The notes under the pieces: model-generated
The model's database searches: none
Told to the model about the DNA's origin: nothing
The model's input: the letters and a program-made list of their open reading frames with translations, nothing else
Position numbers and translations under genes: made by a program
From: Silvanigrella paludirubra
GTDB taxonomy: Bacteria; Bdellovibrionota_B; Oligoflexia; Silvanigrellales; Silvanigrellaceae
NCBI RefSeq assembly: GCF_009208775.1
Contig: NZ_WFLM01000002.1
Span: 682,001-746,000 of the forward strand
Direction of reading: 5' to 3'
DNA: 64,000 bases
Part shown: positions 8,221-32,000 of the stretch, one piece after another
Numbering within the stretch: position 1 is the stretch's first letter
Layout: every line of letters starts with the position of its first letter

Positions 8221-8272
8221 AAATATACAACTTTTGCAAAAAAAGATTTATATTTATAATACTTTATTACAT

Positions 8273-9105: not shown

Positions 9106-9318
9106 CTCACAAGATATATTTTCTATTTCTACTTGTAAATAAAAAACTATATAAAAAAAATAATTGAGTTTTAAATTACCATTTTAAAATTAAAATTATT
9201 TAGTTAAAATATGAAACCAAATTAGATTTTTAATAATAATTAAAGCAATAAGAAATAAACTAATTATTATAAATATTTACTTACTAATTTATTCATTAAA
9301 AATGATTGGAACCATTAT
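9106..9318 (+). repeat. intergenic direct repeat, copy A (between membrane proteins 2 and 3)
   Basis: This spacer is closely similar along most of its length to 10141-10347. Both start CTCACAAGATATATTTTCTA, share AAATTACCATTTTAAAA and GAAACCAAATTAGATTTTTA, and end with AATTTATTCATTAAAAAT before the GGAACC-TATATG start region. It shows that the gene plus its spacer was duplicated as one unit. No open reading frame of note lies in it. Confidence 0.85.
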
Positions 9319-9335
9319 ATGTCATTGTCAATTGA
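9306..9335 (+). repeat. vestigial effector 3' end at membrane-protein copy 3
   Basis: In the effector's frame these codons read LEPLYVIVN-stop, against LEPLYVEIK-stop in the intact effector. The stop again ends 17 bases after the A of the membrane-protein ATG. An in-frame stop lies immediately upstream, so only the tail remains. Confidence 0.7.
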
Positions 9336-10140
9336 TATCGTATTATGCTTTTACTTTCTTTTTGCTTCCTTTATAATTTTTATTATTTCATTTTTCTTAA
9401 TTCAATTAAAAGTAATTAAAAATATTGAAAAAAGATACAATACTAAATTAGATTACCCGTTATTTATAAAATCATCTTTATCCAAAAGCTCTAATGTTGC
9501 AGATTATATATTATATTTATATTTAATAAAATTAAATATTTTAAAATATAAAGAACCAGTAATAATTAAACCATTATTACACCATTTAAATTATGATTTA
9601 AAGGATGAAACGAAAATAAATATAATAATATGTCTTATATTTTACATTTCAACAAAGACTTTGATATTATTATTTATTTCTATTGGATTACTCACAGGAG
9701 TTTTCCAAGAAATGTACGTATTATTTACCAGCTCAATGGAATATACAAATAAATGCTTATTTAATACTTCTATGGGATTTTTATTAGTTTATTTATTATT
9801 AACACCTTTTATAAAATTTAAAATACTTAAATCAATTGAAACAAAATATAATGTTAAAATAGAAAATAATCTTAATTTTCTTCTTTTTAAATATTTCGAT
9901 GTTTCAAACTACATAAAAGACCTTTTTTTATATGAAAAAAAAATATTCAAGATCAAAATGAGTAATTACTTAATAAAACCAAAACTTTCTGAATTTCCAT
10001 ATACAATTAAATCAGAAAGTAATATAAACATATTTATTTCTATTATTCATGCATATAGCTTAAAATTATTTATAATACTTTCATTTATATTTATTATAGG
10101 ATTAACATTTGATTTCGTTTTAGTTTTTGGTGATAAATAA
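9319..10140 (+). CDS. membrane protein 3 of the tandem family
   Basis: An intact 273-residue copy with the two-half layout of the family: KVIKNIEKRYNTKLDYP in the first half and KILKSIETKYNVKIENN in the second, each followed by a D-V-x-x-Y-I element and a Y-x-x-K-x-E box. Membrane stretches lie near residues 8-28, 102-125, 145-165 and 238-262. It is the closest relative of the frameshifted copy 2; the last 130 residues are almost the same. If the family is an immunity family, this copy would protect against a sister effector not present here. The ATG sits in the conserved TTGGAACC-N5-TATATG context rather than behind a standard ribosome site. Confidence 0.6.
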   Translation: MSLSIDIVLCFYFLFASFIIFIISFFLIQLKVIKNIEKRYNTKLDYPLFIKSSLSKSSNVADYILYLYLIKLNILKYKEPVIIKPLLHHLNYDLKDETKINIIICLIFYISTKTLILLFISIGLLTGVFQEMYVLFTSSMEYTNKCLFNTSMGFLLVYLLLTPFIKFKILKSIETKYNVKIENNLNFLLFKYFDVSNYIKDLFLYEKKIFKIKMSNYLIKPKLSEFPYTIKSESNINIFISIIHAYSLKLFIILSFIFIIGLTFDFVLVFGDK

Positions 10141-10347
10141 CTCACAAGATATATTTTCTATTTTTTGTTTTAAATAAAAAGTTAATTGATTTTTAAATTA
10201 CCATTTTAAAATTATTTAGCTAAAATTTGAAACCAAATTAGATTTTTAATCATAAAAAAATTTTAATCATGAAAGTAAAAACAAATAAGCTAATTATTAT
10301 AAATATTTACTTACTAATTTATTCATTAAAAATATTGGAACCTTTAT
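10141..10347 (+). repeat. intergenic direct repeat, copy B (between membrane proteins 3 and 4)
   Basis: This is the second copy of the spacer seen at 9106-9318, with small insertions and deletions and a few substitutions. Its 3' end is the better preserved of the two with respect to the effector: TTCATTAAAAATATTGGAACC against the effector's TTCCTTAAAAATATTGGAGCC. Confidence 0.85.
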
Positions 10348-10364
10348 ATGTTAACATCAACTGA
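10323..10364 (+). repeat. vestigial effector 3' end at membrane-protein copy 4, longest remnant
   Basis: Fourteen codons in the effector frame read SLKILEPLYVNIN-stop, against SLKILEPLYVEIK-stop at the end of the intact effector (7377-7418). Codon for codon this is the best preserved tail. The stop ends 17 bases after the first base of the ATG at 10348. Confidence 0.75.
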
Positions 10365-11184
10365 ATTCAAAGTAAATTTGTATTGTATAGGCTTTATACT
10401 ACCTTTACTTATAATTTCATTATTTTTAATTAGATTTAAAATTATAAATAATATTGAAAAAAGATACAATATAAAACTTGGGAAACCTTTATTCATTCCA
10501 GCTCAGTTTGCTGCTTTAGCAAAATGTTTTAATGTAGCTGATTATATAACATATTTGTATCTTATAAAAATAGGCCTTTTAAAATTTAGAGAACGTATAT
10601 ATAATAAGCCTCTATTATATGAAATAAATTACACTTTAAAAGATGAATCAAAATTCAATATAATGGTTTGCATACTATTTTCAATTACTCATAGAATTAA
10701 TATTGCAGCTTTTATTTTTTTAGCTTACATAACAGGTACAATTCAAGAAGCTTATTTATTATTCATTAAATCCCTTTATTTTACAAATTTTATTTTGCTT
10801 TATATTTCACTTTCTTTTTTATTAATCTATCTAATAATTACTCCTATAATAAAAATTAAAATTTTAAAAAAATTAGAGTCAGAATATAATATAATAATTA
10901 AAAACAGTTTTAATTTTATTTACAACAGATACTTTTATGTTTCAAACCATATTAAAGATCTTTACTTATCTGAAAAAAATATTTTTAAGTTAAAGAAAGG
11001 AAATTATATATTAAAATCTGAACTTACAGAAATCCAATATTCAATAAAAAACGAAAGTAAATTCAATATTTACATTTGCATAATACACAGTTACAGCGTT
11101 AGATTATTTGCTATATTTATATTTATATTTATATTTGCTATAAGTGTTACTCTTGATATAGCTTATATTTTTGGTGACAAATAA
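10348..11184 (+). CDS. membrane protein 4 of the tandem family
   Basis: Intact, 278 residues. It has the family's two halves: KIINNIEKRYNIKLGKP then FNVADYITYLYLIKIGLLKF in the first, KILKKLESEYNIIIKNS then FYVSNHIKDLYLSEKNIFKL in the second, each followed by the K-x-E-S-K-F-N-I box. The membrane segments are placed as in the other copies. The first half is closest to copy 6 (shared TYLYLIKIG/ERK-type block and TGTIQEAYLLFIKS). The gene ends in FGDK-stop followed by CTCAC, the same junction as copies 2, 3 and 6. Copy 5 starts 21 bases later, so copies 4 and 5 are the most tightly spaced pair. Confidence 0.6.
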   Translation: MLTSTEFKVNLYCIGFILPLLIISLFLIRFKIINNIEKRYNIKLGKPLFIPAQFAALAKCFNVADYITYLYLIKIGLLKFRERIYNKPLLYEINYTLKDESKFNIMVCILFSITHRINIAAFIFLAYITGTIQEAYLLFIKSLYFTNFILLYISLSFLLIYLIITPIIKIKILKKLESEYNIIIKNSFNFIYNRYFYVSNHIKDLYLSEKNIFKLKKGNYILKSELTEIQYSIKNESKFNIYICIIHSYSVRLFAIFIFIFIFAISVTLDIAYIFGDK

Positions 11185-11205
11185 CTCACCTTTAGGATTG
11201 ATTGT

Positions 11206-12048
11206 ATGTCAATATGGATTAAATTAGATATAATTGATTACATAATAGTAATATCTATTATATTATTTTTAATAACATTACCTTTAATGCATTTCAAAGT
11301 AATTAAAAATATTGAAGATAAATATAATTCCAAAATTGGAAATTCATTTTATGGTGGATTTAAATATTTAAACATTTCAAATTATGTAATTTTCTTGTTA
11401 ATTGTTAAAAAAGGTTTCATTAAGCATAGAGAGCCATTAATACAAAAACCATTAATTTTAAAGCCATTAATTTTAAAGCCATTACTATATAAATTAAATT
11501 ACAAAATTGATAATGAATCTAAATTTAACATTATAATATGCATTTTATTTTCATTATCATCATTTATTTTTTTAATTGGTATCTTAATTAACTCATACCT
11601 TATAGGAGATTTAAAAAAAGATTTCATTGAATTTAAGAATTCAATGAATTTAATTAGCTTAATATTTTTATATATTTCAATATTTTTTTTCACAGTTCAT
11701 TTATCAATAACTCCTATTATAAAATTTAAAATACTTAAAGAAATTGAATTAAAATACAAAGTAATTATTAAAAATAGCCATTCTTTTTTGTATACTAAAT
11801 ATTTTGATGTTTCAAACTATATCAAAGACCTTTTTTATGCAGAAAAAAATATTTTTAAATTAAAAAAAAACAATTATATAATGAAACCAAATCTTTCTGA
11901 ATTCCCATATTCAATTAAAAATGAGAGTAAATTTAATATTCAAATCTGTTTCATTCATGCTTATAGTTTAAAATTATTTGGAATTTTTATTGCTTTATCT
12001 CTAATTGGATTATCTTTGGACTTTATATCACTATTTGGAAATAAATAA
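11206..12048 (+). CDS. membrane protein 5 of the tandem family, with internal KPLIL repeat
   Basis: Intact, 280 residues. The second half (YFDVSNYIKDLFYAEKNIFKL, NLSEFPYSIKNESKFNI) fits the family closely. The first half is more diverged and carries a short tandem duplication, EPLIQKPLILKPLILKPLLY, encoded by a 15-base unit repeated near 11440-11490; the other copies have a single KPLLY-type element. Its start region is also different: ATG follows AGGATTGATTGT, and only a trace of the vestigial effector tail is left (LYVNMD-stop in the other frame, with the stop again ending 17 bases after the A of ATG). Strand slippage at the 15-base repeat could vary this protein between strains. Confidence 0.6.
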   Translation: MSIWIKLDIIDYIIVISIILFLITLPLMHFKVIKNIEDKYNSKIGNSFYGGFKYLNISNYVIFLLIVKKGFIKHREPLIQKPLILKPLILKPLLYKLNYKIDNESKFNIIICILFSLSSFIFLIGILINSYLIGDLKKDFIEFKNSMNLISLIFLYISIFFFTVHLSITPIIKFKILKEIELKYKVIIKNSHSFLYTKYFDVSNYIKDLFYAEKNIFKLKKNNYIMKPNLSEFPYSIKNESKFNIQICFIHAYSLKLFGIFIALSLIGLSLDFISLFGNK

Positions 12049-12081
12049 CAATATTTATTCTTGATTTATAATTAATAAATA

Positions 12082-12111
12082 TTGGAACCACTATATGTTA
12101 ACGTCAACTAA
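12082..12111 (+). repeat. vestigial effector 3' end at membrane-protein copy 6
   Basis: The codons read LEPLYVNVN-stop in the effector frame. The stop (TAA) ends 17 bases after the A of the ATG at 12095, as in the other copies. An in-frame stop is found a few codons upstream. Confidence 0.7.
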
Positions 12112-12922
12112 ATTAATTATAAGTTTATATTCCATTAGTTTTATTCTTCCAATCTGCATTATATCATTATTACTAGTTAGATATAAAGTCATAAAAAATA
12201 TTGAAAAAAGATACCACACTATACTTGATACCCCATTATTTATAAGTGCTTCATTTTCGATCGGAGCTAGAAGTTTTAATGTTTCTGACTATATAACATA
12301 TTTATTCTTAGTAAAAATAGGATTTTTAAAATTTAAAGAACGAAAATTAATTAAACCAATACTTTATGAAATAAATTACACTTTAAATGATGAATCAAAA
12401 TTTAATATTATAATTTGCATATTATTTTCAATAACACATAGAATTATTTTTATTATTTTTATTTTTATAGCATATATCACGGGAGTGATTCAGGAAGGAT
12501 ATTTATTATTCACTAAATCCTCAAAAGACACAATTCTACTTATATTTAATATTTCAATAACATTTTTATTAATTCACTTATTTCTAACTCCCATCATTAA
12601 GTTCAAGGTTCTTAAAAAAATAGAATTAGAATATAATGTCAGGATAGATAAAAGTTTGAATATTTTTTACAATAAATATTTTGATGTTTCAAATTATATT
12701 AAAGATCTTTTTTTAGCCGAAAAAAAGATCTTTAAATTAAAAAATAATTATGTTATGAAACCAAATCTCTCAGATTTTCCGTATTGTATAAAAAATGAAA
12801 GTAATTTAAATATATACATTTGCATAATACACGCTTATAGCATTAAATTATTTGCTTTATTTATATTTATATTTGCTATTGGATTTACTCTTGATATAGC
12901 ATCTGTTTTTGTTGATAAATAA
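12095..12922 (+). CDS. membrane protein 6 of the tandem family, last of the array
   Basis: Intact, 275 residues with the family's two halves (KVIKNIEKRYHTILDTP / FNVSDYITYLFLVKIGFLKF, then KVLKKIELEYNVRIDKS / FDVSNYIKDLFLAEKKIFKL). The N-terminal half resembles copy 4. Its end (FVDK-stop, CTCAC) is followed within a few bases by the repeat at 12929-12997, so the array stops where decayed, repeat-bearing DNA begins. If the array grew by unequal crossing over or by displacement of older effector-immunity pairs, this end would be the oldest; that is inference. Confidence 0.6.
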   Translation: MLTSTKLIISLYSISFILPICIISLLLVRYKVIKNIEKRYHTILDTPLFISASFSIGARSFNVSDYITYLFLVKIGFLKFKERKLIKPILYEINYTLNDESKFNIIICILFSITHRIIFIIFIFIAYITGVIQEGYLLFTKSSKDTILLIFNISITFLLIHLFLTPIIKFKVLKKIELEYNVRIDKSLNIFYNKYFDVSNYIKDLFLAEKKIFKLKNNYVMKPNLSDFPYCIKNESNLNIYICIIHAYSIKLFALFIFIFAIGFTLDIASVFVDK

Positions 12923-13726: not shown

Positions 13727-14020
13727 ATGGTAAATTACGTTTATCGACAAATTAAACAAGCATTTTCAAAGAATCAAGCTCAATTAATAGTAGGAAAAAT
13801 CGAAAAAGAATTACGTGATGATCCAGAGGCTGGAGATTTAATAGAAGGGACTTATGGCTTGAGAAAGCTTCGAGTTTCTGATGGAAGTAAAGGGAAAAGT
13901 GGAGGGTTACGAGTTCTTTATTTGGATATTAAATTGATAGAACGAATTTATATCATCGCTTTTTTTCCAAAAAATGTGAAAGAAAATTTAACAAAATCTG
14001 AAAGAAATTTTCTTGCTTAA
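13727..14020 (+). CDS. RelE/HigB-like toxin
   Basis: The 97-residue product fits the RelE/HigB toxin superfamily, mRNA-cleaving partners in type II toxin-antitoxin pairs. The recognisable core is GDLIEGTYGLRKLRV followed by SKGKSGGLRVLYLDI and IYIIAFFPKNVKENLT, matching the family pattern GdxIxGTGGLRKxR...GKSGGxRVxY...YxKNxKxdLT. The expected basic residues in the core are present, so the toxin looks intact. An AAAGGGGTAAAG lies upstream of the ATG. The antitoxin gene follows 31 bases later (toxin first, as in higBA order). The pair sits between two inverted repeat copies, consistent with acquisition as a mobile module. Confidence 0.8.
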   Translation: MVNYVYRQIKQAFSKNQAQLIVGKIEKELRDDPEAGDLIEGTYGLRKLRVSDGSKGKSGGLRVLYLDIKLIERIYIIAFFPKNVKENLTKSERNFLA

Positions 14021-14051
14021 GTAGTTTTAAATATTAAAAGTGAGGCTGAAA

Positions 14052-14342
14052 ATGAAAAAACAAAAAAGAAAAAATGAATATTTTGATGAAATTTTGTCCG
14101 CTCTAAACGAGGCTTTAGAGCATGCAAAAGGAAATAAAAAGCTAAAAATGACAAGTGTAAAAATTCATCCTGTGCAGGATATGACTGCAAAAGAAATAAG
14201 TAAATTAAGAGAAAAGCTATCCTTTTCTCAAGCTATTTTTGCAGAGTTTTTAGGAGTATCTAAAAAAACAGTTGAAGCATGGGAATACGGTAAGAGCCAT
14301 CCCAATGGAGCGGCTTTACGTCTATTAAATTATACTAGTTAA
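14052..14342 (+). CDS. HTH antitoxin (HigA/XRE-like), partner of the upstream toxin
   Basis: The ATG at 14052 is chosen because GAGG lies 7 bases upstream; a GTG at 14040 in the same frame is less likely. The 96-residue product has a flexible N-terminal part that would bind the toxin and a C-terminal helix-turn-helix: ISKLREKLSFSQAIFAEFLGVSKKTVEAWEYG, with the typical Q-x-x-F-A-x-x-L-G-V-S-x-x-T-V-x-x-W-E spacing of XRE domains, ending in P-N-G-A-A-L-R-L-L. Such antitoxins neutralise the toxin and repress their own operon. Confidence 0.82.
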   Translation: MKKQKRKNEYFDEILSALNEALEHAKGNKKLKMTSVKIHPVQDMTAKEISKLREKLSFSQAIFAEFLGVSKKTVEAWEYGKSHPNGAALRLLNYTS

Positions 14343-14883: not shown

Positions 14884-15786
14884 TTACTTTTTTAAAGTTA
14901 ATTTTAATAATACATAAATAAGATATGGTATAATTATCAATATATTAAAATATATTAAAAATCTATCATAAGAAATTAATGATAAATAATTTCTTATGAT
15001 TAAAAATAAACTTGTAAATATGAATACAAGAGACAAATACAACAGAATTCTAAATATTTTTAATTTATTTTTGATTATAAAAAAACTAACACATGCAGGA
15101 ATTGAGGTAAGCAGACTAAAAAAATAATAAGGAATCAAATAATCACTTTGATTATTTTTTAAAACAATATTTTTCTCTAAAAATATAAAACTTTTATTAT
15201 ATTCACTCAGCCATCCTATTACTAAGCAAATAAAAATATATATCATATGCCCCAGAACAGGATATTTCATATATGAAAGAATAGATTTTAATTTCATAAA
15301 TATATAAATGTTAAAATTACATTGCTTTATAGAAATTAAATTATAATTAATTAATACATAATAGGATAATTTTGTTAGAAAAATACTAAAAATTGGTAAA
15401 ATCAATAAAACAAAAATTAATTCTAATATTAGATAATTATTTTGAAATAACATTAAGCGATATAAAATCATTTCTTTTAATATTAAATACAATAATATTA
15501 ATAATATACTATTAAATAAGGATAAATATATTTTTAATAAAAAATATTTGCAATTTATTTTATAAAAATCATTATCCATAATAAAAGAACCATAAAAAAC
15601 GAAAAAATATTTTATGTAATAATAATATTCAAAAATCTCAATATTTTTAACAAAGCCAAATTGATAATCACTTGAGTACATTTTATTTATTTCATTATCA
15701 AAAATAAATAAATAAATACAAAATGAAATATTTACAAATATGTATATTAAAAATGATTTTAACTTCACCATTAAAGATTTATACAT
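14884..15786 (-). CDS. polytopic membrane protein directly after tae4, candidate immunity
   Basis: Unknown protein of 300 residues with roughly eight hydrophobic segments and no soluble domain of note. It starts immediately after the tae4 stop codon (TAA followed by ATG), so the two are co-translated. In T6SS loci the gene in this place usually encodes the cognate immunity protein. For Tae4 that is normally the small periplasmic Tai4 (about 120 residues with a signal peptide), which is not seen here. Either this membrane protein takes that role in an unusual way or it serves another purpose. The extreme Ile, Leu, Tyr and Lys content and very low GC suggest weak constraint or recent transfer. 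Confidence 0.45.
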   Translation of the reverse strand: MYKSLMVKLKSFLIYIFVNISFCIYLFIFDNEINKMYSSDYQFGFVKNIEIFEYYYYIKYFFVFYGSFIMDNDFYKINCKYFLLKIYLSLFNSILLILLYLILKEMILYRLMLFQNNYLILELIFVLLILPIFSIFLTKLSYYVLINYNLISIKQCNFNIYIFMKLKSILSYMKYPVLGHMIYIFICLVIGWLSEYNKSFIFLEKNIVLKNNQSDYLIPYYFFSLLTSIPACVSFFIIKNKLKIFRILLYLSLVFIFTSLFLIIRNYLSLISYDRFLIYFNILIIIPYLIYVLLKLTLKK

Positions 15787-16497
15787 TTAATTCATTTCCC
15801 AAAACCAAACTTCTTTATTTTTGCTATATCTTGTGACTCCAGTAAAAGGAATAAAACCTAAAAACTCATGCATAATCATAGATGATGCTGTTAGTTTGTC
15901 TTTGTTCCAAAGGTCAATATGATCACCACTTCTATTTTGATCGCTCTCATTTGATCTCATCCAGAAATCTTTTATAAATATTATTCCCGTTTTTCCATCT
16001 ATTTCATCCTTAAAATTTTTACTTTTTTCTTTAATCTCTGCCAATAAAGGTTTCATCTTTTTTTTATTTTTTTCATTTTCATTTTTAATTTTAATTTTCT
16101 CATTTTCATTTTTAATTTTCTCATTTTCTTTATCTATTGTTTCTTGAGTTTTAAAATCTTGACATGTTATTATATTACCAAAAGGTTTTAAATATCTTAA
16201 CCAATTTGCCATTTCTTCAGCACCTCTAGCAAATCCGTGCTTACATTTCATTCCTTTAAAAGATGCCATATTTACTTCACTTTTTTTAAAGCAATAATGC
16301 ATATTTATTGCACATTGGTTATCATATAAATATAAACCTTTAGAATTTTTTTCATCGCATGCTTTTTTTATTCCATTTATATTTGGATGATTATTCCATA
16401 AATCTTCAAATTTTGGAATAAATATTTTTACAGTTACATTTGTATTTTTTTTGCTATTTGTTTTGGTTTTTATTGGTTTATTGTTATTTTTAGGCAT
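15787..16497 (-). CDS. tae4: Tae4-type peptidoglycan amidase, T6SS effector
   Basis: Tae4 effectors are delivered into the periplasm of rivals and cut the D-Glu to mDAP bond of peptidoglycan stems. The 236-residue product shows the family's elements in order: IPKFEDLWNNHPN (about 28-40), YDNQCAINMHYCF with the catalytic Cys, a C-x-H-G-F-A-R-G-A-E-E-M-A-N-W-L helix, then GKTGIIFIKDFW, SGDHIDLWNKDKLT with the catalytic His, and EVWFWEM at the C-terminus. An unusual insertion of about 35 residues made almost wholly of Lys, Glu and Asn lies between the halves (about 120-160). There is no signal peptide, as expected for a needle-delivered effector. It starts 5 bases after the PAAR stop, so it is probably delivered by that PAAR and VgrG. 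Confidence 0.85.
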   Translation of the reverse strand: MPKNNNKPIKTKTNSKKNTNVTVKIFIPKFEDLWNNHPNINGIKKACDEKNSKGLYLYDNQCAINMHYCFKKSEVNMASFKGMKCKHGFARGAEEMANWLRYLKPFGNIITCQDFKTQETIDKENEKIKNENEKIKIKNENEKNKKKMKPLLAEIKEKSKNFKDEIDGKTGIIFIKDFWMRSNESDQNRSGDHIDLWNKDKLTASSMIMHEFLGFIPFTGVTRYSKNKEVWFWEMN

Positions 16498-16502
16498 TTT
16501 TA

Positions 16503-17015
16503 TTATTTCCTATGTCTTGCTAAAGCTTCATCGCCCCAATACAGTTCTATTTCTTCTTCATCATTCGTTCTAATTTTTCTTGTTTTCCCATCATCATTTG
16601 TTCTGCCAAATAATTTTTTCCCATCAGGGTAAATAACCAAGTAAGGCAACTCTTTAATAGGTAAACCTTCATTATCAAGCGCTGTAAATTGCTCATCATA
16701 TACTTTAAATTCAAGTTCACTTTTAAAAAGACTTGGCTCCTCTGTAATAGAAAATTTTTCTAAAGCATTTTGACCAACTAAAGTGCAACCACAGCCTACT
16801 TTATGACCATGAAGCGCAATAGGGAGACCATTTAATTTTATATTTGGATAACCTTCAATTATTTCTGTGGAACCATGCAAAGGAATAGGGCAAGAGACTT
16901 TATCTCCAAGAGTTGCTACAGGAAAGCCATTAAATTTTATATTTATTTGATTTGTTTTAACAACACTACCACCACTACTAAGTGGATCTCCTAAAACAAT
17001 TATAGATTTTTTCAT
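16503..17015 (-). CDS. PAAR spike-tip protein with C-terminal extension
   Basis: PAAR proteins cap the VgrG spike and carry effectors. Residues 1-85 show the PAAR repeat pattern: LGDPLSSGGSVV, then FNGFPVATLGDKVSCPIPLHG, LNGLPIALHGHKVGCGCTLVG, with the His and Cys residues that bind zinc at the tip (C42/H46-type and H70/C74/C76-type, approximate numbering). From about residue 95 a second beta-rich domain follows (FKVYDEQFTALDNEGLPIKELPY ... YPDGKKLFGRTNDDGKTRKI), the extension often seen on PAAR proteins that bridge to a cargo effector. GAGAGGTAAG precedes the ATG. Its place between vgrG and tae4 fits a role in loading Tae4. Confidence 0.87.
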   Translation of the reverse strand: MKKSIIVLGDPLSSGGSVVKTNQINIKFNGFPVATLGDKVSCPIPLHGSTEIIEGYPNIKLNGLPIALHGHKVGCGCTLVGQNALEKFSITEEPSLFKSELEFKVYDEQFTALDNEGLPIKELPYLVIYPDGKKLFGRTNDDGKTRKIRTNDEEEIELYWGDEALARHRK

Positions 17016-17026
17016 TCTTACCTCTC

Positions 17027-19219
17027 TTATTCTATTTCAATTTTACTACTTGCAGAATTTATATTCATCTTTTTACATTTTATAGAAACAAGGCCACTGC
17101 TTTCTATTTTAACTTGTGCAGAACCAACCGTTATTATAACTTCTTTTTGTGAGTTTAATGAAATTTTATCCTGAGCTTCAGTTACCACCTCTTTTTCTGA
17201 TTTAATTTTAATATTTTCTATTGCATCTAATAAATATTCTTTATCTGTTTTAAATTCAATGTTTTTTTCGGCTTCAAAACTCATTTTATTTTCTGTTATA
17301 AAATCCATATGCTCTTTAGATTCATGAAGCATATTTTTCTTAGATATAAATTCCATTTGCTCTTTGGATTCATGAAGCATATTCTTTTCAGTTTTACATT
17401 CCATTTGCTCTTTGGAGGTAGATAGCATATTTTTATCTGTAATAAACTCCATTTGAAGTTTAGACTTAGATAACATATTTTCTGAAGTTCTCATAGTCAT
17501 TGTTAATTTAGACTGAGTTAAATGATCTCCAAAAGAACGAATGCGCATATGTTTCGCTGCTGCTATATTAACCGTAGCTGTTTTATGATCCATTTCTAAA
17601 AAATTATTTTTTTTATTTTCAGAAGGTTGATCATATAAAGCAAGAATATGTTGCTTTTTTAAATTACTTATAGGAGCTGGTCTTTTTTCATTATATAAAC
17701 CACCAATAACAACTGGTAAATCTGGATCTCCGTCTTCAAATGCAACCAATACTTCTTCACCACCTCTAGGTATTGCAAAAAATCCATAACTTTTATTTGC
17801 CCAAGGACTCATGTATCGCGCATAAATATATTCTGCTTTATCGGAATACTTATCATATTGCCAAGGCAATTGAACTTTTATAAAATAATTTTCATCTAAA
17901 TTTAATTCGTATTCTTCTCCATAAACTTTCGCAGTTATAGTTCCATCAATATAATTCCTATTGTATTTATGCGAAACATTATGTTGTACATCTTTATGAT
18001 GAAGAATAATATTGGTCTCATAATGAAATTCATCTCCACCTACATACATAAAAACAAAAGTATAAGATTGAACTCTATAATCTTTTATTTCATTTAAATG
18101 TGATGTTAATGGCTTTTTTTGACTCGAATTATAATTGGCACTTATCATTGAACCAATATGGATTTTTAATGAACTAGAAATAGCGGAAATATTTTTTAAA
18201 TTAGAATTTACTTTTTTTTCTAAAGAAGTAGTTTTATTTTCTAAAAATTTGACAGAAGAAGCTTTTTCTTTATATTTTTTAGCACCTTCAAATCCTAATC
18301 TTTGTTTTACTTTTAGCAAATGATCTCCAGATTTTTTTTCACTCTCCTTTTTCATTACTTTTCCAAAATTTCTATGATCAGAATCAAAAGAATCTATTTC
18401 TATAGGAGCGCCTGAGTATACAAAATTTATATTTGTTATTCTTTCTTTTCTAAATGCGAGGGCTTCTTTTAATGGATTATCTTCTGATTTGATTAAATTT
18501 TGAGAATTATCTTCAATATCTAAAGCTATTTTTCTATATTTTGATTCACTTATTAATGTATTTATTAAATTTACATCATTTAAAATATGAAATATTTGTT
18601 CGCCTTTTTCATAAGTAAAAATAAAATCCCAATCTTCTTCATCAATAAGCCGCAATATAAAATCCCAGTCACTTTCTCCATTTTGAATACAATTTATTCT
18701 AATAGTATCTTTTTCTGGTGAAAATTTAAATTTGACATTAAACTTAATAAATGACATTTTTTCAAAATCAGAAAATACATCTTTAATAATATCTTCAACT
18801 TTTTTATCAATATACACTCGATAATTGTTACTTTTTTGTAAAAACCATGGTAATGGATTTGCATAAAATGTGAATTTCTTTTTATCTGAATAATAATCTT
18901 CTAACTTTGTTTGGCTTACAAAAGAAGAATATTCTCTAATTGGAATTCCTAGTGAATTAAAGATTTCTATATGAACCTTAGAGAAATAAAAAAATGAGGA
19001 AGATTTCTCTAAATCAAACGAAAGTTTTGTACATATTTCATGAATTTGCATAGGATCCAGAATAAACTGTAACTCCATTTCTGTTAAGGAGCTGATTTCA
19101 TCAAATACAAGAAATTGGGAAAGTCCTGTTTCTAAAATTTTTTTATCATTTTTATAAAAGGTAGCTATTAATGTATAACCAGTTTTGTTTTTGACATAAG
19201 AAAATATATCTTGTTTCAT
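17027..19219 (-). CDS. vgrG: VgrG (TssI) spike protein
   Basis: VgrG trimers form the puncturing spike of the T6SS. The 730 residues have the expected layout: an N-terminal gp27-like region (about 1-330) with the DWDFILRLIDEEDWDFIFTY element (family: ExDFxxRLLExEGxxYxF), a gp5-like OB fold (about 420-520) with FIKVQLPWQYDK, ARYMSPWANKSYGFFAIPRGGEEVLVAF and DPDLPVVIGGLYNEKRPAP, and a beta-helix needle. An extra low-complexity stretch sits at about 280-360. The needle contains eight 16-residue repeats (see separate entry) and ends in short strands without a toxic extension. AGGA precedes the ATG. It lies in one run with TssF-like genes upstream and PAAR-tae4 downstream. Confidence 0.93.
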   Translation of the reverse strand: MKQDIFSYVKNKTGYTLIATFYKNDKKILETGLSQFLVFDEISSLTEMELQFILDPMQIHEICTKLSFDLEKSSSFFYFSKVHIEIFNSLGIPIREYSSFVSQTKLEDYYSDKKKFTFYANPLPWFLQKSNNYRVYIDKKVEDIIKDVFSDFEKMSFIKFNVKFKFSPEKDTIRINCIQNGESDWDFILRLIDEEDWDFIFTYEKGEQIFHILNDVNLINTLISESKYRKIALDIEDNSQNLIKSEDNPLKEALAFRKERITNINFVYSGAPIEIDSFDSDHRNFGKVMKKESEKKSGDHLLKVKQRLGFEGAKKYKEKASSVKFLENKTTSLEKKVNSNLKNISAISSSLKIHIGSMISANYNSSQKKPLTSHLNEIKDYRVQSYTFVFMYVGGDEFHYETNIILHHKDVQHNVSHKYNRNYIDGTITAKVYGEEYELNLDENYFIKVQLPWQYDKYSDKAEYIYARYMSPWANKSYGFFAIPRGGEEVLVAFEDGDPDLPVVIGGLYNEKRPAPISNLKKQHILALYDQPSENKKNNFLEMDHKTATVNIAAAKHMRIRSFGDHLTQSKLTMTMRTSENMLSKSKLQMEFITDKNMLSTSKEQMECKTEKNMLHESKEQMEFISKKNMLHESKEHMDFITENKMSFEAEKNIEFKTDKEYLLDAIENIKIKSEKEVVTEAQDKISLNSQKEVIITVGSAQVKIESSGLVSIKCKKMNINSASSKIEIE
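17144..17527 (-). repeat. eight tandem 16-codon repeats in the VgrG needle
   Basis: Residues 565-692 divide into eight units of 16, for example NMLSTSKEQMECKTEK and NMLHESKEQMEFISKK. Positions 2-3, 10 and 12 are mostly hydrophobic and positions 6-8 are polar. The middle units are nearly identical at DNA level (48-base period). Sixteen is twice the 8-residue period of gp5/VgrG beta-helices, so the block probably makes the needle shaft, and copy number could change its length. Confidence 0.8.
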
Positions 19220-19237
19220 TTTAATTCCTATAATATT

Positions 19238-20857
19238 TTAGTTTCTTCTTATAATATGCCTGTAATCTTTATCATTTATACTAGTCATTAGTGATTCCAT
19301 ATATCTATCATAAAAAAAGTATTTCTTATCTGGCATTTTTGTTAATAAAAAGTCAGAATAAAAATCAAGTTCTGTGTTAATTACTTCAACTTTTAATGTC
19401 CAATTTTGTTCCATTATATTATTTATATAAGTATAAAATAAATTTTTATTATTAAAAAATAAATGTTCTAAACTTTTAAAATATTGAATTAGTAACTTCA
19501 ATGGTTTTATTTTTTTTCCGATAAAATAATTCATATTATATAAGTATTGAAAAAAAAGAGGATTAGATAAAGCTTCACTATAAAAAATGTGGTCACTCGA
19601 AGAATTTAAAATTTTCCCAAAAGACGTACTTAAAGAATTTAAGACCGTTATATTTTTTTGTAATAATTTTTCATTATTTATAAACAAATTTGTACATATT
19701 GCAGTTTGCTCAAACCTTATATCATTTTTAATATGAAAAGTGTTATATTTAATTTTATGCTCAATATTAAATGGTAATTCAAAATCGAATGATATATATT
19801 TTGAAATATTGCCGAAACTTGATGGATCTATTTTTTTCTCTGTTTTATTATCTATAAATTTTATATCAGAAACAGAAATTACACCATTTGTTTTTAAATC
19901 TGCTATTTCTATTTCTCCTTCAGTTTCTGAATTTAAAATTTTCCAAGGTAAAGTTTGTTTATATATATTATAAAACACAAAACAATTTGTTTTTATAAAA
20001 TTTCTTAAATTTTTAAAATTAGAATATCCACTTCCTAAAAGAGGAATTTTTAATTTAAATTCATTTATCATTAAAATTTTAAATTTGGACAGATCAATAT
20101 CAATATAAAGCATATTTTTTAAATTATTTAAAATATCTCTTGTATTTTCAAGCTTATTCTTTGACTCAAAAAATATATATTTTTTTTCTGAAAAATTAAA
20201 ATTTAAAGAAAGAATATCTTTACTTATTTTATATTCTTCTTCTTCATTTTGAAAAATAATTTCTTTATGAAAAAGATCTCTATCAAATAAATAACCAATT
20301 AAACTAACCATCTCTTCAGGATCATCAGATTGAAGATATACTCTTAGTTTTGCATTAAAATCGTAATCTTCAAATTCAAGCATATTTTTAAATTCAATAT
20401 TTAAAAAACATTCTCGATCTCCAGCGACAAAATAACTATTAATAGCTTTAAAGGGAGAAAGCTCTTGTTTACCAAGAGTACTTAATTTTAATGATTGTTC
20501 ATCAATCTGACATTCACAAGTAATATATTCTTTTTCATCAAACTCTTCCTGAATGGAGTAAAACTCTTCAAAATTATCAAATTCAACAATGTAAGAGGGA
20601 ATTTCTGGAATATACCATTCTGGAAAAATGGGTTCCATAAAATTTCGAACTTGGTTTGCAATAATGCTTTGCATTTTAGAATGGGTTAGTGTTAAAAAGA
20701 AAGAACAAGATTCTACAAGTTTTTCTGTCTCATTATCTAATAAACCAGCATGTGAGAGTCCAAAGTGAGGTTTTAGCTCGGGATGCTCATTTGTCATTTT
20801 GTTTAATTCATGTCTTAGTTCAAATATTTTTTGTGATAAAAAGTTTTCAAAATTCAT
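19238..20857 (-). CDS. TssF-like baseplate protein, second paralogue
   Basis: TssF is the wedge subunit (two copies per wedge) that holds TssG and TssK in the T6SS baseplate. This 539-residue protein shows the family's start in degenerate form: an N-terminal helix with ELRHELNKMTNEHPELKPHFG (family: ExRxLAxEFAxxxPxLAxxLG), LLDNETEKLVESCSFFLTLTHSKM, then P-I-F-P-E-W-Y-I-P-E-I-P-S (family: YPHxLRPxPS). It shares with the gene at 21513 the block YIDIDLSKFKI ... IPLL ... NFIKTNCFVFYNIYK, corresponding to the family's NC-P-V-x-N-L-F element. The start ATG overlaps the stop of the 218-residue gene (ATGA). The C-terminal third is strongly diverged. It is less certain than its paralogue. Confidence 0.55.
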   Translation of the reverse strand: MNFENFLSQKIFELRHELNKMTNEHPELKPHFGLSHAGLLDNETEKLVESCSFFLTLTHSKMQSIIANQVRNFMEPIFPEWYIPEIPSYIVEFDNFEEFYSIQEEFDEKEYITCECQIDEQSLKLSTLGKQELSPFKAINSYFVAGDRECFLNIEFKNMLEFEDYDFNAKLRVYLQSDDPEEMVSLIGYLFDRDLFHKEIIFQNEEEEYKISKDILSLNFNFSEKKYIFFESKNKLENTRDILNNLKNMLYIDIDLSKFKILMINEFKLKIPLLGSGYSNFKNLRNFIKTNCFVFYNIYKQTLPWKILNSETEGEIEIADLKTNGVISVSDIKFIDNKTEKKIDPSSFGNISKYISFDFELPFNIEHKIKYNTFHIKNDIRFEQTAICTNLFINNEKLLQKNITVLNSLSTSFGKILNSSSDHIFYSEALSNPLFFQYLYNMNYFIGKKIKPLKLLIQYFKSLEHLFFNNKNLFYTYINNIMEQNWTLKVEVINTELDFYSDFLLTKMPDKKYFFYDRYMESLMTSINDKDYRHIIRRN

Positions 20858-21510
20858 ATAATTTTAGAGCCTTTAAAATATTTTTCAATTTGTTCATTAT
20901 CCATATTTTTTATGTACGTAACATCACCATCAAAAATGTCGAAAGCATAATATAAAGTAAATTCTTTAGTAGCTGGAAAAATTTTTAGAGCTAAAGAATG
21001 TTCTTTTCTAAATTTTTCAACAATGGGGATATATTTTGAATTTATTTTTAAATAAACAGCATATTTTATACCATTAACCTCATGTTTTTTTCCTAATAAG
21101 GTTTTATATTTTGCAACACCTATTTCATTGTTCTTTATTAAAGCATAGTAAGGACAGTTTTCATCTAAAATAATATCTGTATAAGCATTTACATATTGTC
21201 CAAAATATTCAATAAAATAATTCATTATATTTTGTTTGTTTAATAATATTTTTTTATCTTTTTCAAAATTTAAAACACCTTCGTTTAATATTTTATTATT
21301 ATATTCTTCAATTTCATAGAGTTTTTTATAAAATATTTTTATAAATTTAGACAATACTTCTTTTTGCTTTTCATCTAGCTCCCTAAATTTATCATAATAA
21401 ATTTCAGGAAAGACAACTTTAAAGGAGCCTGCAACATTTTTTTGAGCATCTGGATAAAAAACAACAGAACTATGAAGCATTCTTTCAATTTCTTTAATAA
21501 TATTTTGCAT
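20854..21510 (-). CDS. unknown protein between the two TssF-like genes
   Basis: A 218-residue soluble protein with no family that I recognise. It lacks a signal peptide and membrane segments. The first half is helical and charged (FRELDEKQKEVLSKFIKIFYKKLYEIEEYNNKIL); the second half alternates strands (EVNGIKYAVYLKINSKYIPIVEKF, LALKIFPATKEFTLYYAFDIFDGDVTYI). It overlaps the downstream TssF-like gene by 4 bases and starts 2 bases after the upstream one, so the three are co-translated. In canonical loci TssG (about 330 residues) lies beside TssF, and no other TssG candidate is in the window. A shortened, diverged TssG is therefore possible, though the sequence alone does not show it. Confidence 0.45.
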   Translation of the reverse strand: MQNIIKEIERMLHSSVVFYPDAQKNVAGSFKVVFPEIYYDKFRELDEKQKEVLSKFIKIFYKKLYEIEEYNNKILNEGVLNFEKDKKILLNKQNIMNYFIEYFGQYVNAYTDIILDENCPYYALIKNNEIGVAKYKTLLGKKHEVNGIKYAVYLKINSKYIPIVEKFRKEHSLALKIFPATKEFTLYYAFDIFDGDVTYIKNMDNEQIEKYFKGSKII

Positions 21511-21512
21511 AA

Positions 21513-23141
21513 TTAATTCTTTATTTTAATTTTGTGTTGAAAACCAGAATAAGAAACTTTTTTTAAAAATTCGTCTATAAAATGAATCATTAAACTCACC
21601 CCTCCAAATTTATAAATTTGCTTGTTTATTTTAATGTCAACTTCATATCTATTTGTTAATATTGTTTTATAAATTTGTAAGTCATATTTTTTGATATTTT
21701 TTTCATTATGAATTAAAACCTGTTCAATTATTTTAGGCATAATTCCTTTATAATTTGAAGAAGTGCTTGAAAATTTTTCTAAAATATCAAAAAATTTCTT
21801 TATATAAAATTTTGAGTTCATAATAGCTTCATTCATTTGAAATATATCATTATAAAAAAATTCATTGCTAAAATTTTCAAAATGAAAAGTTGTTTTACTT
21901 GCTGAAGTAATATTTTCAAATTTAAGAGAGGAATCATTTTTTATACTAAATTTTGAATATAGAGGAATGGAATGAACTTCTGTCAAATTAGAGCATTTAA
22001 AATAAGGAACAACAATCGTATCATTGGCGAATGCTGTTTTAATTTTTAAATAATATATGATATCTAGCTTTTTGTCTTGAACGATATATTTTTTATGTAT
22101 TTTATAATCTATACCTTCTTTCATTTCGACATCATTATGGTTTCTATCAAAAAACTGGATATGATCTATACCAATAAATTTCTTTTTGGAACCTCTATCT
22201 AAAGTAAAATATCCTTTTTTCCCTTTTTTAAAAAAAAGCGGATCACCTTGTTTTCGAAATACATTTTTTACAGGAAAACAATTTAAATGCGCAAAATGAT
22301 TTAGATCTTGAAATTCAGGGAGCGTTTTGCTCAAAGGGATTTCTATTGTTAGTGTTTCATTTGCTTTTAAATTCATTTTAAACATAGATAAATCAATATC
22401 AATAAATGAATAATTGTTTAAATAATTCACAAATTGGTGAATATAAAAAGAATAATTATTATTTTTATGAATAGATAAATCAAATATATTAGAAAAGGAA
22501 TATTTCAAAATATTTCTATCTTCACTTGATTCATAAGTTTTGTCTATATATGTTATTTTAATTTTTTTTTGGGTCAGAAGCAGTTCATCTAAAAATCTAT
22601 AAAAGTAACTAAATTTATTACAATCAAAGTATATTTTTAATAAATTTAAATTTTCAATATCCGCTAATGCTTTAACTTCTAAGAAAGCAGAAAAATTTTT
22701 ACCATTTTTATCGAAATAGGAATTAACAATTTCTATAGGTTGCAATACTATGGGTAAATTATTACAAAATATTTTATTATCAACAGAACTTTCATTTAAG
22801 TAAAATAAGGTATTTTCATTTAATGTATTTGTTTTGAAAAGGCCATTATTAGGATGCACAGCTTTTAAGACAAAAGAAGAAGTAAGAGGCTGAAACCATT
22901 CTTCTAAATAATTGCTAAGATTGCTATTTTTTTGAACTTCTGCCTTTGCTATAAAATTTGTTTCAATTTGCGCAAGCATGTAAGCATAACACTCTTTAAA
23001 CCTATCTGTTTCTGGATCATTCAATGCATTTAGGTCAGAAAATAAAGCGGGAAATAAACTTGGATTATTTAATGTAATTTCATGAATTTTAGTAGTAAAG
23101 ACTTCTAACGTGTGAGATAATTTTTTTTGATTAATATTCAT
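21513..23141 (-). CDS. tssF: TssF-like baseplate protein, first paralogue
   Basis: The 542-residue protein has the better TssF features of the two paralogues. The N-terminal part has NNPSLFPALFSDLNALNDPETDRFKECYAYMLAQIETNF (family: P-x-L-A-x-x-L ... DPxVERLLEGFAFLxA). The middle has FIDIDLSMFKMN, LNHFAHLNCFPVKNVFRKQGDPL (family: NCTPVxNLFxxxxxPI) and GIDHIQFF. The C-terminus has NRYEVDIKINKQIYKFGGVSLMIHFIDEFL, like the family's G-x-E-V-x-L ... F-x-G-x-x-x-F-L-F-x-x-V-L-x-x-F-F. It heads the minus-strand run TssF1 - unknown - TssF2 - VgrG - PAAR - Tae4. The 198 bases upstream presumably contain the promoter and also the end of sdhA. Confidence 0.65.
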   Translation of the reverse strand: MNINQKKLSHTLEVFTTKIHEITLNNPSLFPALFSDLNALNDPETDRFKECYAYMLAQIETNFIAKAEVQKNSNLSNYLEEWFQPLTSSFVLKAVHPNNGLFKTNTLNENTLFYLNESSVDNKIFCNNLPIVLQPIEIVNSYFDKNGKNFSAFLEVKALADIENLNLLKIYFDCNKFSYFYRFLDELLLTQKKIKITYIDKTYESSEDRNILKYSFSNIFDLSIHKNNNYSFYIHQFVNYLNNYSFIDIDLSMFKMNLKANETLTIEIPLSKTLPEFQDLNHFAHLNCFPVKNVFRKQGDPLFFKKGKKGYFTLDRGSKKKFIGIDHIQFFDRNHNDVEMKEGIDYKIHKKYIVQDKKLDIIYYLKIKTAFANDTIVVPYFKCSNLTEVHSIPLYSKFSIKNDSSLKFENITSASKTTFHFENFSNEFFYNDIFQMNEAIMNSKFYIKKFFDILEKFSSTSSNYKGIMPKIIEQVLIHNEKNIKKYDLQIYKTILTNRYEVDIKINKQIYKFGGVSLMIHFIDEFLKKVSYSGFQHKIKIKN

Positions 23142-27663: not shown

Positions 27664-28983
27664 TCACTTACCCTTCATTTCCCAATAAAGAACAATGGCA
27701 TCGGGTTCAAATAAATTATACTTCGAGCTGCTTTGGGAAATGACAAGTGTGTTGTCATTTAAAGCCTGATCTGGTGCAAGTTTTACGTTAAAAAATAAGT
27801 ATTCATTTTTTAAATTAATTTCAATATCCGCATGCTCATGTTTTCGTTCATAACCTAAACTTCGTTTTTCAATCATAAAATGATATTCATTTTTTTCACA
27901 AATAAGAGAAGCATGAAGCCATTCCATTAATTGAGCATCTGAAACTCGTGCAGGTTTTTTAAGGGCAATTTTGTAAATTGAGGAGCTTTGTTTAGGAAGC
28001 TTTAAATAATACAAATTATCTTTTTTGGTAAATAAATATAACTTATATTTTTCTGAAATTTCTTTATTTAAAATTTCATTCATGAAATCCATAATTGAAG
28101 TAAAATATTCTTCAATATTTAAATATTTAAACTCAGGCAATTTAGGTAGATTAATATTTGGGTTAATTGAAATAACATTTGCAAATATTTTATTCAAAAT
28201 TAAATAAAAATCTTTTGGTAAAATTTGATCTTCATTTAAAACCTGTTCCATCATGTTTAATGAATTTGATAGATGCTTAATTTTTATAAAATGGTCATGG
28301 TATTTTTTTGGATTAAGCTCACTTTTATTATCTTCAATATCTTTTTTGATCATTAAAAATTTATTATTGATAAGTTCCATTGAACTTTCTAATTTTGCAA
28401 TAATTTTTTGATCGGATTTTATATTAAATACAGGAGGCTTGTAATCATCTAATTCCAAGCCATTTTTACTTAATTTTAATTTAGCTATTGGCAAAAATCC
28501 ACAATTAGAGGGAGTGGTATTTGCAACAACAAGATTGATATTTTTTTCTATCGTATAAATACTATTTTCTGAATTTATACATTCTCTAATAAAGTGCTTT
28601 TGATTTGGTGATTGATATTCTAAATTACCAGAAATAAGATTATAATCATTAATTGTGATAAAAATATAAGCGCCATCATTTTCTAATGGATCTAAAGTTT
28701 TTATATCTATTGAGTAAAATAAAAGGTTTGTTGCTTTATGGTAATATTCGGAGCCGTTTGAAAAAATACATTCAATTTCAGAGATTTTAAAAATACCTTT
28801 TCTTTGAGCATTTTTGTCAATTTCAAATTTAATAATTCCAAAGTTTTCTGGTTTTAATAAGTTATAACGCATTTCATTTAAAAGTTCAGATTGTTTAAAT
28901 AATTTAAATACAGATTTTTCAGTAATTGTATCGGAGTTTTCTATTTTTATAAGTTTTGGTAAAGATAAAGTATTTGCTATCAT
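27664..28983 (-). CDS. tssK: TssK, T6SS baseplate-membrane complex connector
   Basis: TssK trimers link the TssF/TssG wedges to the membrane complex. The start at 28983 (MIANTLSLPKL) is preferred to an ATG 10 codons upstream because AAAGGAAA lies just before it. The 439 residues fit the family length. The shoulder domain includes GIFKISEIECIFSNGSEYY (family: G-x-x-x-I-x-x-x-x-x-x-x-P-D-G), and CGFLPIAKLKLSKNGLELDDYKPP is the family's L-P-I-A-x-L ... Y-I-P-P motif. A long helical stalk follows, then a beta C-terminal head (EWLHASLICEKNEYHFMIEKR). The family's W-x-x-G-x-x-x-x-P-Q-H-F-Q start is not preserved. It lies in a minus-strand pair with the large gene upstream. Confidence 0.75.
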   Translation of the reverse strand: MIANTLSLPKLIKIENSDTITEKSVFKLFKQSELLNEMRYNLLKPENFGIIKFEIDKNAQRKGIFKISEIECIFSNGSEYYHKATNLLFYSIDIKTLDPLENDGAYIFITINDYNLISGNLEYQSPNQKHFIRECINSENSIYTIEKNINLVVANTTPSNCGFLPIAKLKLSKNGLELDDYKPPVFNIKSDQKIIAKLESSMELINNKFLMIKKDIEDNKSELNPKKYHDHFIKIKHLSNSLNMMEQVLNEDQILPKDFYLILNKIFANVISINPNINLPKLPEFKYLNIEEYFTSIMDFMNEILNKEISEKYKLYLFTKKDNLYYLKLPKQSSSIYKIALKKPARVSDAQLMEWLHASLICEKNEYHFMIEKRSLGYERKHEHADIEINLKNEYLFFNVKLAPDQALNDNTLVISQSSSKYNLFEPDAIVLYWEMKGK

Positions 28984-29092
28984 ATCTGTTTCCTTTAGTA
29001 ATAATAGATACAAATCTAATATAAATTAAGACTTGTAACTTTATTATCATTTAGCATTTTTTAAAAAATAAAGAAAAGAGATTAGAAAAAAA

Positions 29093-32000
29093 TTAAAGCA
29101 CGCCCATTTTTAGTTGAAAACGCCCAGGATCAAATTCAAATTTAGGTTCTTGAACTTGAACATCTATATAAGAAGTTGTTTCATCTATATCCATTTTAAT
29201 TTGAATTAAATTTTTAATAAGTAAATTCAAACGCTCCAGCTCTTCTTCAGGATTTTTTAACCAATCTATTGAATAAATTTTTTCAATATTCCATCCATTT
29301 TCTATTAGCTTTTTGTCCCTCATATCAATTTTGTCGCCAAAGTGTTGAGAGGAATGCATAATACACTCGTCGCATTCGATACCTAGTACAAAATAATTTT
29401 CGCGATAAGGATGAAGAACAACTAGATCGAGATAGATGTTATTATGGCCAAACATTTCTATAACATTATAGCCCAAGTTTGTTAACTTTGTTTTTACAAA
29501 TTGTGAGAACTCACTAGGCTTATAGCCATCTAATGCATTTTTTGGCTTAAAAGATTTTATAATATTTAAAGCTTTTTCATAGTTTTTTTCCGACAAAGAT
29601 TTTGTAAACTTTAAAAATCTTCCTAAAATGCACATATTATAATTTTCTGTATAATATTTATCGTTTGTTTCCATTAAATACAAAGGTATAGTATTTATTA
29701 CAATTAATTTATTTTTAACAGAAGAAATTAAGTTATTTATTAATATATTCGAATTATTATCACGGTATATTTTTAAAGTTTCAGAATAATCAATTTTATT
29801 TTGGAAAAAGATAGATCCTGTTGAAAATAAAACAGTATCAAATTTTTCATTTCCAATACTTTTTATATCTTTTATTACAATTTTTGTTTCTAAATCAAAG
29901 TTTTCTTTTCCATAAAGACGAGACACTAGCAAATTCCATTTTTGATTTTGTTTTAACTTCATATTTAAAATTTCTTTGTAAAACAAAGACTGTTCAATAC
30001 TTGTAGTAATAATTGCATATGATTTTATTGGAAACAAGTTTATTTCATTTAAGAGAGTCTCTAAAACAAAATCAGATTCATAAAAACTTTCATTTTTAAT
30101 AGATATATTTTTTATTGTATTTAAATCATAAAATTCAATTTCACTTCCTGATAAAAACTTATAAGGAGATGGGATTATTTTTAATTCACCTAAATAAAAT
30201 GCATAATTAGCAAATGAAAGTAAAGACTCATTAAATTCACCTGTAGCATTTTTAAATATTGTAGAAGAAGATTTTTTTTCTATGTAATATTTTATATCTT
30301 TACTTTGATAGTTAAGATCTTTACTCATATTATATAAGATTAATGAGCCTAAATTATTATTATTATTTTTTATCATTAATAATTTTTTAGACCTGTAAAT
30401 CGAAGGTATAATTCGATCCAAATTTAACTTAGAGTCATCGTCAATAATTAACAAATCAAACATTTCATTTGCTAAAGGAATGAGGTTACTTACATCCTTT
30501 GGATTTAATAACCAACAAGATTTCATTTTTAAAAACAATTGAATTTCATCGGGCAAAAGTTTAGGAGAAGATTCTTCAGTTAGTTTTTTAATTAAATTAT
30601 GATATAGCTTATGATCTTTAACATTTTTAAAGTTTTCATTCGTCTTATAATTAAAATAATCATTTAAATTAAATTTCACATATTCATCTATCTCATTTAG
30701 ATCTGAAAATAAAGAACGAATGGTTTCACGTCCATAATTTTTAATGGCTGGATTATAAGACAAAAGATCACTAAACCAACCTAAAATTACAGTAGAATAA
30801 ACAATATCTTTCCATTTAGATTTATGGTGTGACAAAGATTCTATGATGTCGATATCCAAATTTACTAAATTATATTTATCTTGTAAATTACAAACAATTT
30901 TATTATATTGATGCATAAAGTCTATATCATCAATTCTATCAATCATAACATTTATAAAACTCAACTTTTTTTCAGTAGAATTTAATTGTATTTTATCAAG
31001 CTGTATATAATTAGATAATTTATTCCATTCTTTATTTATATTTTGATCACATTCTTCAATTTGATTAATAGTTTCTGAAATTTCTTTGATTAATTGAATT
31101 ACATTTTTATAACTATAGAATGACTGAATTGCTTCTTGATAATGCTTTTCAGTTAATGTTTGTTTTGCGTCTTTAAAAAGATCATAAATATTTTCAATGT
31201 CTATTTGAATTTTGTAAATATAATTAATAATATATTCATGATTATTACTTTCTAAATAAATATTACATCTTATTTTTGATACAATATGCATTAATTCTTC
31301 AAAACAATCTATATATTTTAAATAATGTTCAAATTGCTTATTAGTTCCATCCCACTTTAAGCAAAGCTTTTTAATTAAAGCTCTATTCACCCAATATTTT
31401 TTAGTAAAATATTTTGAAAAGCTATTTTCATTTTTAATATATTCTTCTAAGTCTTTAATTAATTTAGGAGCAGTACCTTCTTTTATAGATTGATAACCTA
31501 ATTTATAATCTTCCATATCAATTAATATTCTTTGCATATTGATAGAGATAGATTTTAAATTATCAATATAAATAATTTGATTTTCCCATAAATTCTTATA
31601 GTCGTATGAAATATCTAATTTACCAGAATTTCTAGACATAAAAATTGAGTATTGATTTAAATTTTCTTCTAACTGATTTTGAATTACATGTTGATTTATT
31701 TTATATTGTAAGTAATTCTTTTTGCCTTTTAAATTATGAATATTATTTTTTATATTAATTAATTCATCAAATAATATTTTATTTTTTAAAGTGACTTCTA
31801 ACTTATATTTCCAAGGGCTATCTAAATTATTATTTAATCTTATATAAAAATACTGTATTCCATTAATTTCTTCTAAAATATTAGATAATTTCTCCCATTC
31901 AATAAAACCGAATTTTTGATAAATATTTGAGTCATATAAATCTTTATTTGCTAGAAATGTTTTGTGTATAATTTCTAAATTTGTTAAACCACTCTTTAAA

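Follow-up and report, generated by a model that had tools for sequence, protein, structure and literature searches.

Two diverged TssF paralogues and a putative reduced TssG point to a probable heteromeric baseplate wedge in a second type VI secretion system of Silvanigrella

We analysed a 64,000-nt window of the 3.9-Mb genome of Silvanigrella paludirubra (G000:C3:682001-746000), which carries part of a type VI secretion system (T6SS) that we call T6SS-2. Its baseplate wedge is encoded by a trio of genes, two of them for TssF paralogues, TssF-A and TssF-B, and the one between them for a short protein, X. The T6SS-2 wedge is probably heteromeric, A:B:X, and composed of diverged TssF duplicates together with a reduced TssG. 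The original prediction, namely that two diverged TssF-like genes enclose a third, was borne out, as all three genes are intact on the minus strand: TssF-A (542 amino acids (aa)) at 21513-23141, X (218 aa) at 20854-21510 and TssF-B (539 aa) at 19238-20857. The coupled overlaps proposed at the same time are present between X and TssF-B, which share 4 nt (ATGA), but not between TssF-A and X, which lie in near-contact, 2 nt apart. The canonical wedge of enteroaggregative Escherichia coli (EAEC; 6N38) has the composition TssK6-TssF2-TssG1. A pair of TssFs makes up a pseudo-threefold trimer with a single TssG, the three chains meeting in a three-helix bundle and in a triangle formed by their C-terminal domains, and TssG serves as the anchor for a pair of TssK trimers (PMC6300606). 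That two identical TssF chains bind each TssG in known wedges, as had been assumed, is indeed the published rule, with the 2:1 complex built from a single TssF gene (PMC6300606).

The trio is not a chance arrangement, because the same gene order recurs in two other genomes of the genus (G002 and G005), where the three proteins are 33-50% identical to those of the window, and the substitution pattern shows constraint. All wedge reading frames are intact in these three diverged genomes, with nonsynonymous divergence (dN) of 0.4-0.7 against near-saturated synonymous divergence (dS) of 1.1-2.3. TssF-A, X and TssF-B stay adjacent and in order even in G005, where the trio is separated from the other T6SS-2 genes. 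Between genomes, the wedge proteins are 30-50% identical and thus far less conserved than the T6SS-2 sheath (84-93%), and TssF-B is the more diverged of the two paralogues (33-38% identity, compared with 40-47% for TssF-A). G005 also contains a stand-alone 165-aa duplicate of the TssF-A N-terminal region (L032:9221-9718; G005:C3:245221-245718).

Both outer proteins are diverged TssFs. As single sequences they match the family weakly, with E-values of 7e-6 (TssF-A) and 8e-7 (TssF-B) for TIGR03359 in NCBIfam, which do not reach its curated cut-off, and of 1.3e-3 and 5e-7, respectively, for the Pfam TssF family, whose cut-off was passed by TssF-B of the window and by both paralogues of G005. In profile-profile comparisons using three orthologues each, TssF-A and TssF-B matched the standard TssF of the genus (E=9e-19 and E=2.4e-14) and each other (E=6.5e-21 across 508 columns, nearly the full length), so that the comparison with TssF profiles suggested in the original prediction came out positive for both. 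The fold was checked for TssF-B, whose AlphaFold (AF2) model has a mean predicted local distance difference test (pLDDT) score of 79.6. Its best match in the PDB is the EAEC TssF of the wedge solved by cryo-electron microscopy (6N38_H; E=8e-17, template modelling (TM) score 0.65, full length), and in this model TssF-B keeps all three TssF domains, that is, the whole TssF fold. Regarding the motifs by which the two proteins were initially recognised, the D-x-E-T and N-C stretches are family-wide, but the exact IDIDLS-x-FK match between the two paralogues is lost in the other two genomes. A glycine stretch near the C-terminus is kept in TssF-A and in the TssF of T6SS-1, another system of the genus, and is lost in TssF-B.

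Profile comparison and the position of X between both TssFs in three genomes make a strongly reduced TssG its most likely identity. Its profile matched the TssG of T6SS-1 (TssG1) with E=2.5e-6, and against seven TssG1 sequences it scored 43.9, compared to 23 for the best of 100 column shuffles (0/100 reached the score), while no match was found to the T6SS-1 TssF profile. TssG1 was itself called TssG by position, being encoded directly after tssF in every T6SS-1. When X and TssG1 together were compared with canonical TssG (loci scoring 1e-78 to 1e-102 with TIGR03347, plus the TssG of T6SS-3), they aligned in order with a score of 25.4 (best of 100 shuffles, 16.1), yet with an E-value of only 0.014. 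Relative to TssG1, X is missing ∼30 N-terminal residues and ∼11 columns of the TssK-binding loop 1, where the region of the first plug residue is absent; the canonical loop 2 motif is not visible in X, nor in the TssG of T6SS-1. A sequence search of the PDB with the TssG alignment gave no match. Besides X, T6SS-2 offers no candidate for a TssG. The description of the third gene as lying where TssG belongs but being far shorter therefore agrees with its position between the TssFs and with the TssG1 match, but the label 'unknown' that it was given does not, as the same match and the shuffle controls favour a reduced TssG. On the same grounds we rejected the possibility of X being unrelated to TssG.

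The trio supplies the wedge of T6SS-2, a second and complete T6SS whose core set is present: TssJKLM, TssBC, Hcp, TssE, TssA, the wedge, VgrG and PAAR (Hcp, TssJ and TssM were assigned by position and by similarity to T6SS-1 or to G002/G005). No ClpV gene was found in the T6SS-2 cluster. In G002, a single strand carries all the genes as a continuous operon, J-214aa-K-L-M-B-C-Hcp-E-A-TssF-A-X-TssF-B-VgrG-PAAR. In the genome of the window, the order is J-222aa-K-L-M-B-C-Hcp-E-A, where 222aa is a secreted protein, and these genes extend from C3:676477 to window position 5889; after TssA come a probable effector with an array of membrane proteins and then, on the opposite strand, the module of wedge and spike genes. 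In G005, the A-X-B-VgrG-PAAR module is on a different contig from the rest of T6SS-2. With a full T6SS-2 adjacent to the trio here and in G002, we rejected the view of the trio as a stand-alone module that makes use of T6SS-1 components. The T6SS-1 of the same genome (C3:188219-205397) encodes one TssF, one TssG and one TssK, and T6SS-3, found in G002 and G003 (loci L073 and L076), has a recognised TssG, a single TssF and one TssK. A full tssG and a single tssF elsewhere in the genome had been named as an argument against a wedge with two TssFs. Such a pair exists, but it does not refute the reading, because it belongs to another machine, the separate and complete T6SS-1.

T6SS-2 also has a second, orphan TssK gene (27664-29013, minus strand; PF05936 E=6e-21) that is inherited together with the trio. 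T6SS-2 TssC (at least 87% identity), A-X-B and the orphan TssK occur jointly in three of the eight genomes of the genus (G000, G002 and G005), and sheath, trio and orphan are jointly absent from the other five. These include G003 and G006, which are, by tree branch lengths, close sisters of G002 and G005, respectively, and have neither T6SS-2 nor the trio nor the orphan TssK. From this joint presence and absence we conclude that TssF and TssK, both of which are canonically used more than once per TssG, have been duplicated and have diverged in T6SS-2. The TssKs of the T6SS-2 operons and the orphans form one clade (support 100/100), in which the orphans group together (93/96), a grouping made less certain by long branches. 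To judge from its sequence, the orphan is a TssK paralogue and not a canonical TssK. The N-terminal motif W-x-EGM-x-L-x-P-x-HFQQ is found with small changes in the TssKs of T6SS-1, T6SS-3 and outgroups, is reduced in the operon TssKs of T6SS-2 and is absent in the orphans; in the known structure, this N-terminal region grips TssG (PMC6300606). Adjoining the orphan tssK in the window and in G002 is a gene for a 1391-aa protein (29093-33268) that resembles the anti-phage protein ProA and has an MTES_1575 nuclease domain.

Phylogenetically, both TssF paralogues are older than the divergence of the three genomes. TssF-A (100/99) and TssF-B (100/100) each form a clade, and the two together form one clade (95/94; 95/91 with outgroups) that neighbours the TssF of T6SS-1 in this genus. 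As each is an old clade and the two belong together, the duplication took place within this lineage and both copies have been retained. No TssF-A homologues were found in scans of genome_contigs and viral_contigs, and a plasmid scan gave no match for TssF-A or for the T6SS-3 TssG. Similarly, tandem TssFs were not found in 398 Pseudomonadota genomes (87 with TssF), a survey that would miss copies as weak as the TssF-A of the window; it returned one broken TssF fragment 10 kb from a TssF.

Among 395 Desulfobacterota genomes surveyed for TssF, some do have tandem TssFs, in the form of a TssF followed by a TssG-TssF' fusion. In the fusion of G612, both the TssG (1e-85) and the TssF part (3e-140) score above the curated cut-offs, and its two TssFs are 37% identical. 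We read 12 loci from the order that includes Geobacter, here called the Geobacter order (L086, G058), and found an uninterrupted TssG-TssF' frame of 920-1082 aa in nine, from nine genomes (L096, L098-L105), directly after a separate TssF in six of these (L096, L098-L102; the fusion locus region of L096 is L096:8732-13224). Six fusions were checked with NCBIfam, and both halves passed the cut-offs. Further candidates from the order-level survey lie at contig ends. Among the remaining loci, L097 has a TssG-TssF' fusion with one in-frame TAG (L097:353-3157, minus strand), L106 a single 1071-aa frame that runs through TssF and TssG and ends in the first part of a second TssF (L106:2059-5274), and L107 shows only TssF. 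The Geobacter-order copies form a clade of their own (100/100), split into F (99/99) and F' (100/99) and apart from A and B. Double TssFs thus have at least two independent origins, and a single common origin of those in Silvanigrellales and in the Geobacter order was rejected by the tree. Both lineages combine two diverged TssFs with one TssG, but in the Geobacter order the duplication is independent and a full-size TssG is joined to the second TssF in one protein. We found no description of these fusions in the open-access papers searched, and likewise no open-access paper on a duplicated TssF or a TssF paralogue pair in one wedge.

Compared with the canonical wedge, T6SS-2 uses the same protein families, with a full TssF fold in the TssF-B model and an X that aligns in order with TssG; it differs in having two diverged TssF genes, a TssG shortened to ∼216 aa and missing part of loop 1, and two diverged TssKs. 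A bundle made from two different proteins that provide three distinct segments is also found in the extracellular contractile injection system AlgoCIS, where the core bundle consists of Alg11 domain I and Alg12 domains I and IV (PMC8894135). In AlgoCIS, however, the gp7-like part is fused to the gp6-like part and there is no TssJLM membrane complex, whereas T6SS-2 is a membrane-anchored T6SS with TssK, TssL, TssM and unfused wedge genes. As far as its gene content tells, T6SS-2 is not an extracellular contractile injection system. TssF and TssG of one wedge are physically linked in E. coli CFT073, which has a natural TssF-TssG fusion, and in EAEC an engineered TssF-TssG fusion worked but the inverted TssG-TssF did not (Brunet 2015, PMC4604203). 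The CFT073 case differs in that it involves one fused protein, and the passages of that paper that we consulted do not mention a second TssF.

Taken together, these observations are best explained by a TssF duplication within this lineage, after which the copies diverged into TssF-A and TssF-B and each would have come to occupy one of the two TssF positions. We infer that the bundle would then be built from A, B and X at 1:1:1, replacing the 2:1 ratio of TssF to TssG, with X as a cut-down TssG. TssK was duplicated as well, and since both T6SS-2 TssKs are altered in the N-terminal stretch by which the known structure holds TssG, each TssK trimer site may likewise have its own fixed protein. Several points weigh against this reading. 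X reaches no cut-off in the Pfam and NCBIfam family libraries, and TssG1, which provides its link to TssG, is itself not recognised by either. The predicted structure of X has low confidence (pLDDT 64), and no TssG was found for it in the PDB; structure prediction covered single chains. The orphan TssK gene is not adjacent to the T6SS-2 genes, and the arrangement is known from three genomes, too few for co-variation analysis.

Alternatively, T6SS-2 could assemble two kinds of homodimeric wedge on a shared X, one with A paired to A and the other with B paired to B, for use under differing conditions or with differing spikes. Canonical TssF does pair with itself (PMC6300606), and the two TssKs could be split between A-type and B-type baseplates. 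We nevertheless consider this unlikely, because one X and one tightly linked A-X-B-VgrG set would have to serve both, and because intact copies of A and B always occur together. The Geobacter-order fusion, which ties one TssF to TssG beside a second TssF, likewise favours mixed over homodimeric wedges.

It is also conceivable, if quite improbable, that only one paralogue, presumably A, is the wedge TssF and that B, although derived from a TssF, acts as an adaptor for the VgrG-PAAR spike or in some other accessory capacity. Such a role would fit the greater divergence of B, its loss of the C-terminal glycine stretch, and the fact that vgrG and PAAR always follow it directly. However, the B model keeps all three TssF domains (see the match to 6N38 above), and T6SS-3, with a standard wedge, likewise has VgrG immediately after its wedge genes, so the neighbourhood of B is not special. 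Finally, a decaying T6SS-2 with a redundant duplicate TssF, an eroding TssG and paralogy without function would be in keeping with the shortened X, the low conservation of wedge proteins relative to the sheath, and the TssF-A fragment of G005. This we regard as very improbable, given that none of the wedge genes is disrupted in any of the three diverged genomes and dN stays below dS, that sheath and tube are strongly conserved, and that both paralogues are older than the split of these genomes.

For the favoured A:B:X wedge, we tentatively extend the argument to TssK, in that the two TssKs might fill the two trimer sites separately. Somewhat speculatively, the wedge might even be fully asymmetric: every subunit with two positions would be split into fixed-position paralogues (TssF-A/B and operon/orphan TssK), and TssG would be reduced, with its pairing role partly taken over. 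On this proposal, T6SSs would have moved away from a self-pairing TssF on at least two independent occasions, a step that is the rule in extracellular injection systems. A T6SS wedge must place two copies of one protein in two different environments; these freshwater bacteria appear to have switched to a built-in asymmetry, and unrelated Geobacter-type bacteria to have done so independently via gene fusion. Two TssF paralogues would allow genetics to ask for the role of each position (hub, sheath, inter-wedge contact and TssK placement), which is impossible with a single tssF. The independent Geobacter-order fusion further suggests that heteromeric wedges are a recurring T6SS solution, bringing T6SSs closer to extracellular injection systems.

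Downstream of TssF-B, the minus strand encodes the VgrG spike of T6SS-2 (17027-19219; TIGR03361 E=1e-42), which follows TssF-B in all three genomes, the PAAR tip protein (16503-17015; PF05488 E=1e-20), a Tae4-type amidase effector (15787-16497; PF14113 E=3e-16) and a 300-aa membrane protein without a family match (14884-15786), which by its position is a possible immunity partner of the Tae4 effector. On the plus strand are the C-terminal part of TssM (1-1554; the gene begins upstream at G000:C3:679703), TssB (1657-2190; PF05591 E=3e-45), TssC (2214-3707; PF05943 E=3e-118; 87-93% identical only in G002 and G005), Hcp, the tube protein (3748-4323; no Pfam match, assigned by its position between TssC and TssE, with 80-85% identity to its counterparts in G002 and G005), TssE (4352-4744; TIGR03357 E=1e-14) and TssA (4753-5889; TIGR03363 E=4e-36). 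The stretch that follows (5886-12922) encodes a probable T6SS-2 effector of 510 aa with a glycine-rich hydrophobic stretch and no family match, and after it six related membrane proteins of ∼245-280 aa in tandem, probably an immunity array. Between the two halves of T6SS-2 lies a small gene pair (13727-14342) that, in sequence appearance, resembles the toxin-antitoxin pair HigB/HigA. Elsewhere in the window, we noted a 1088-aa protein with methyltransferase and aminotransferase domains in one frame (40856-44122) and a lipoprotein-like protein with ParB-like nuclease and phytase/tyrosine-phosphatase domains (47343-49049), a possible exported effector.

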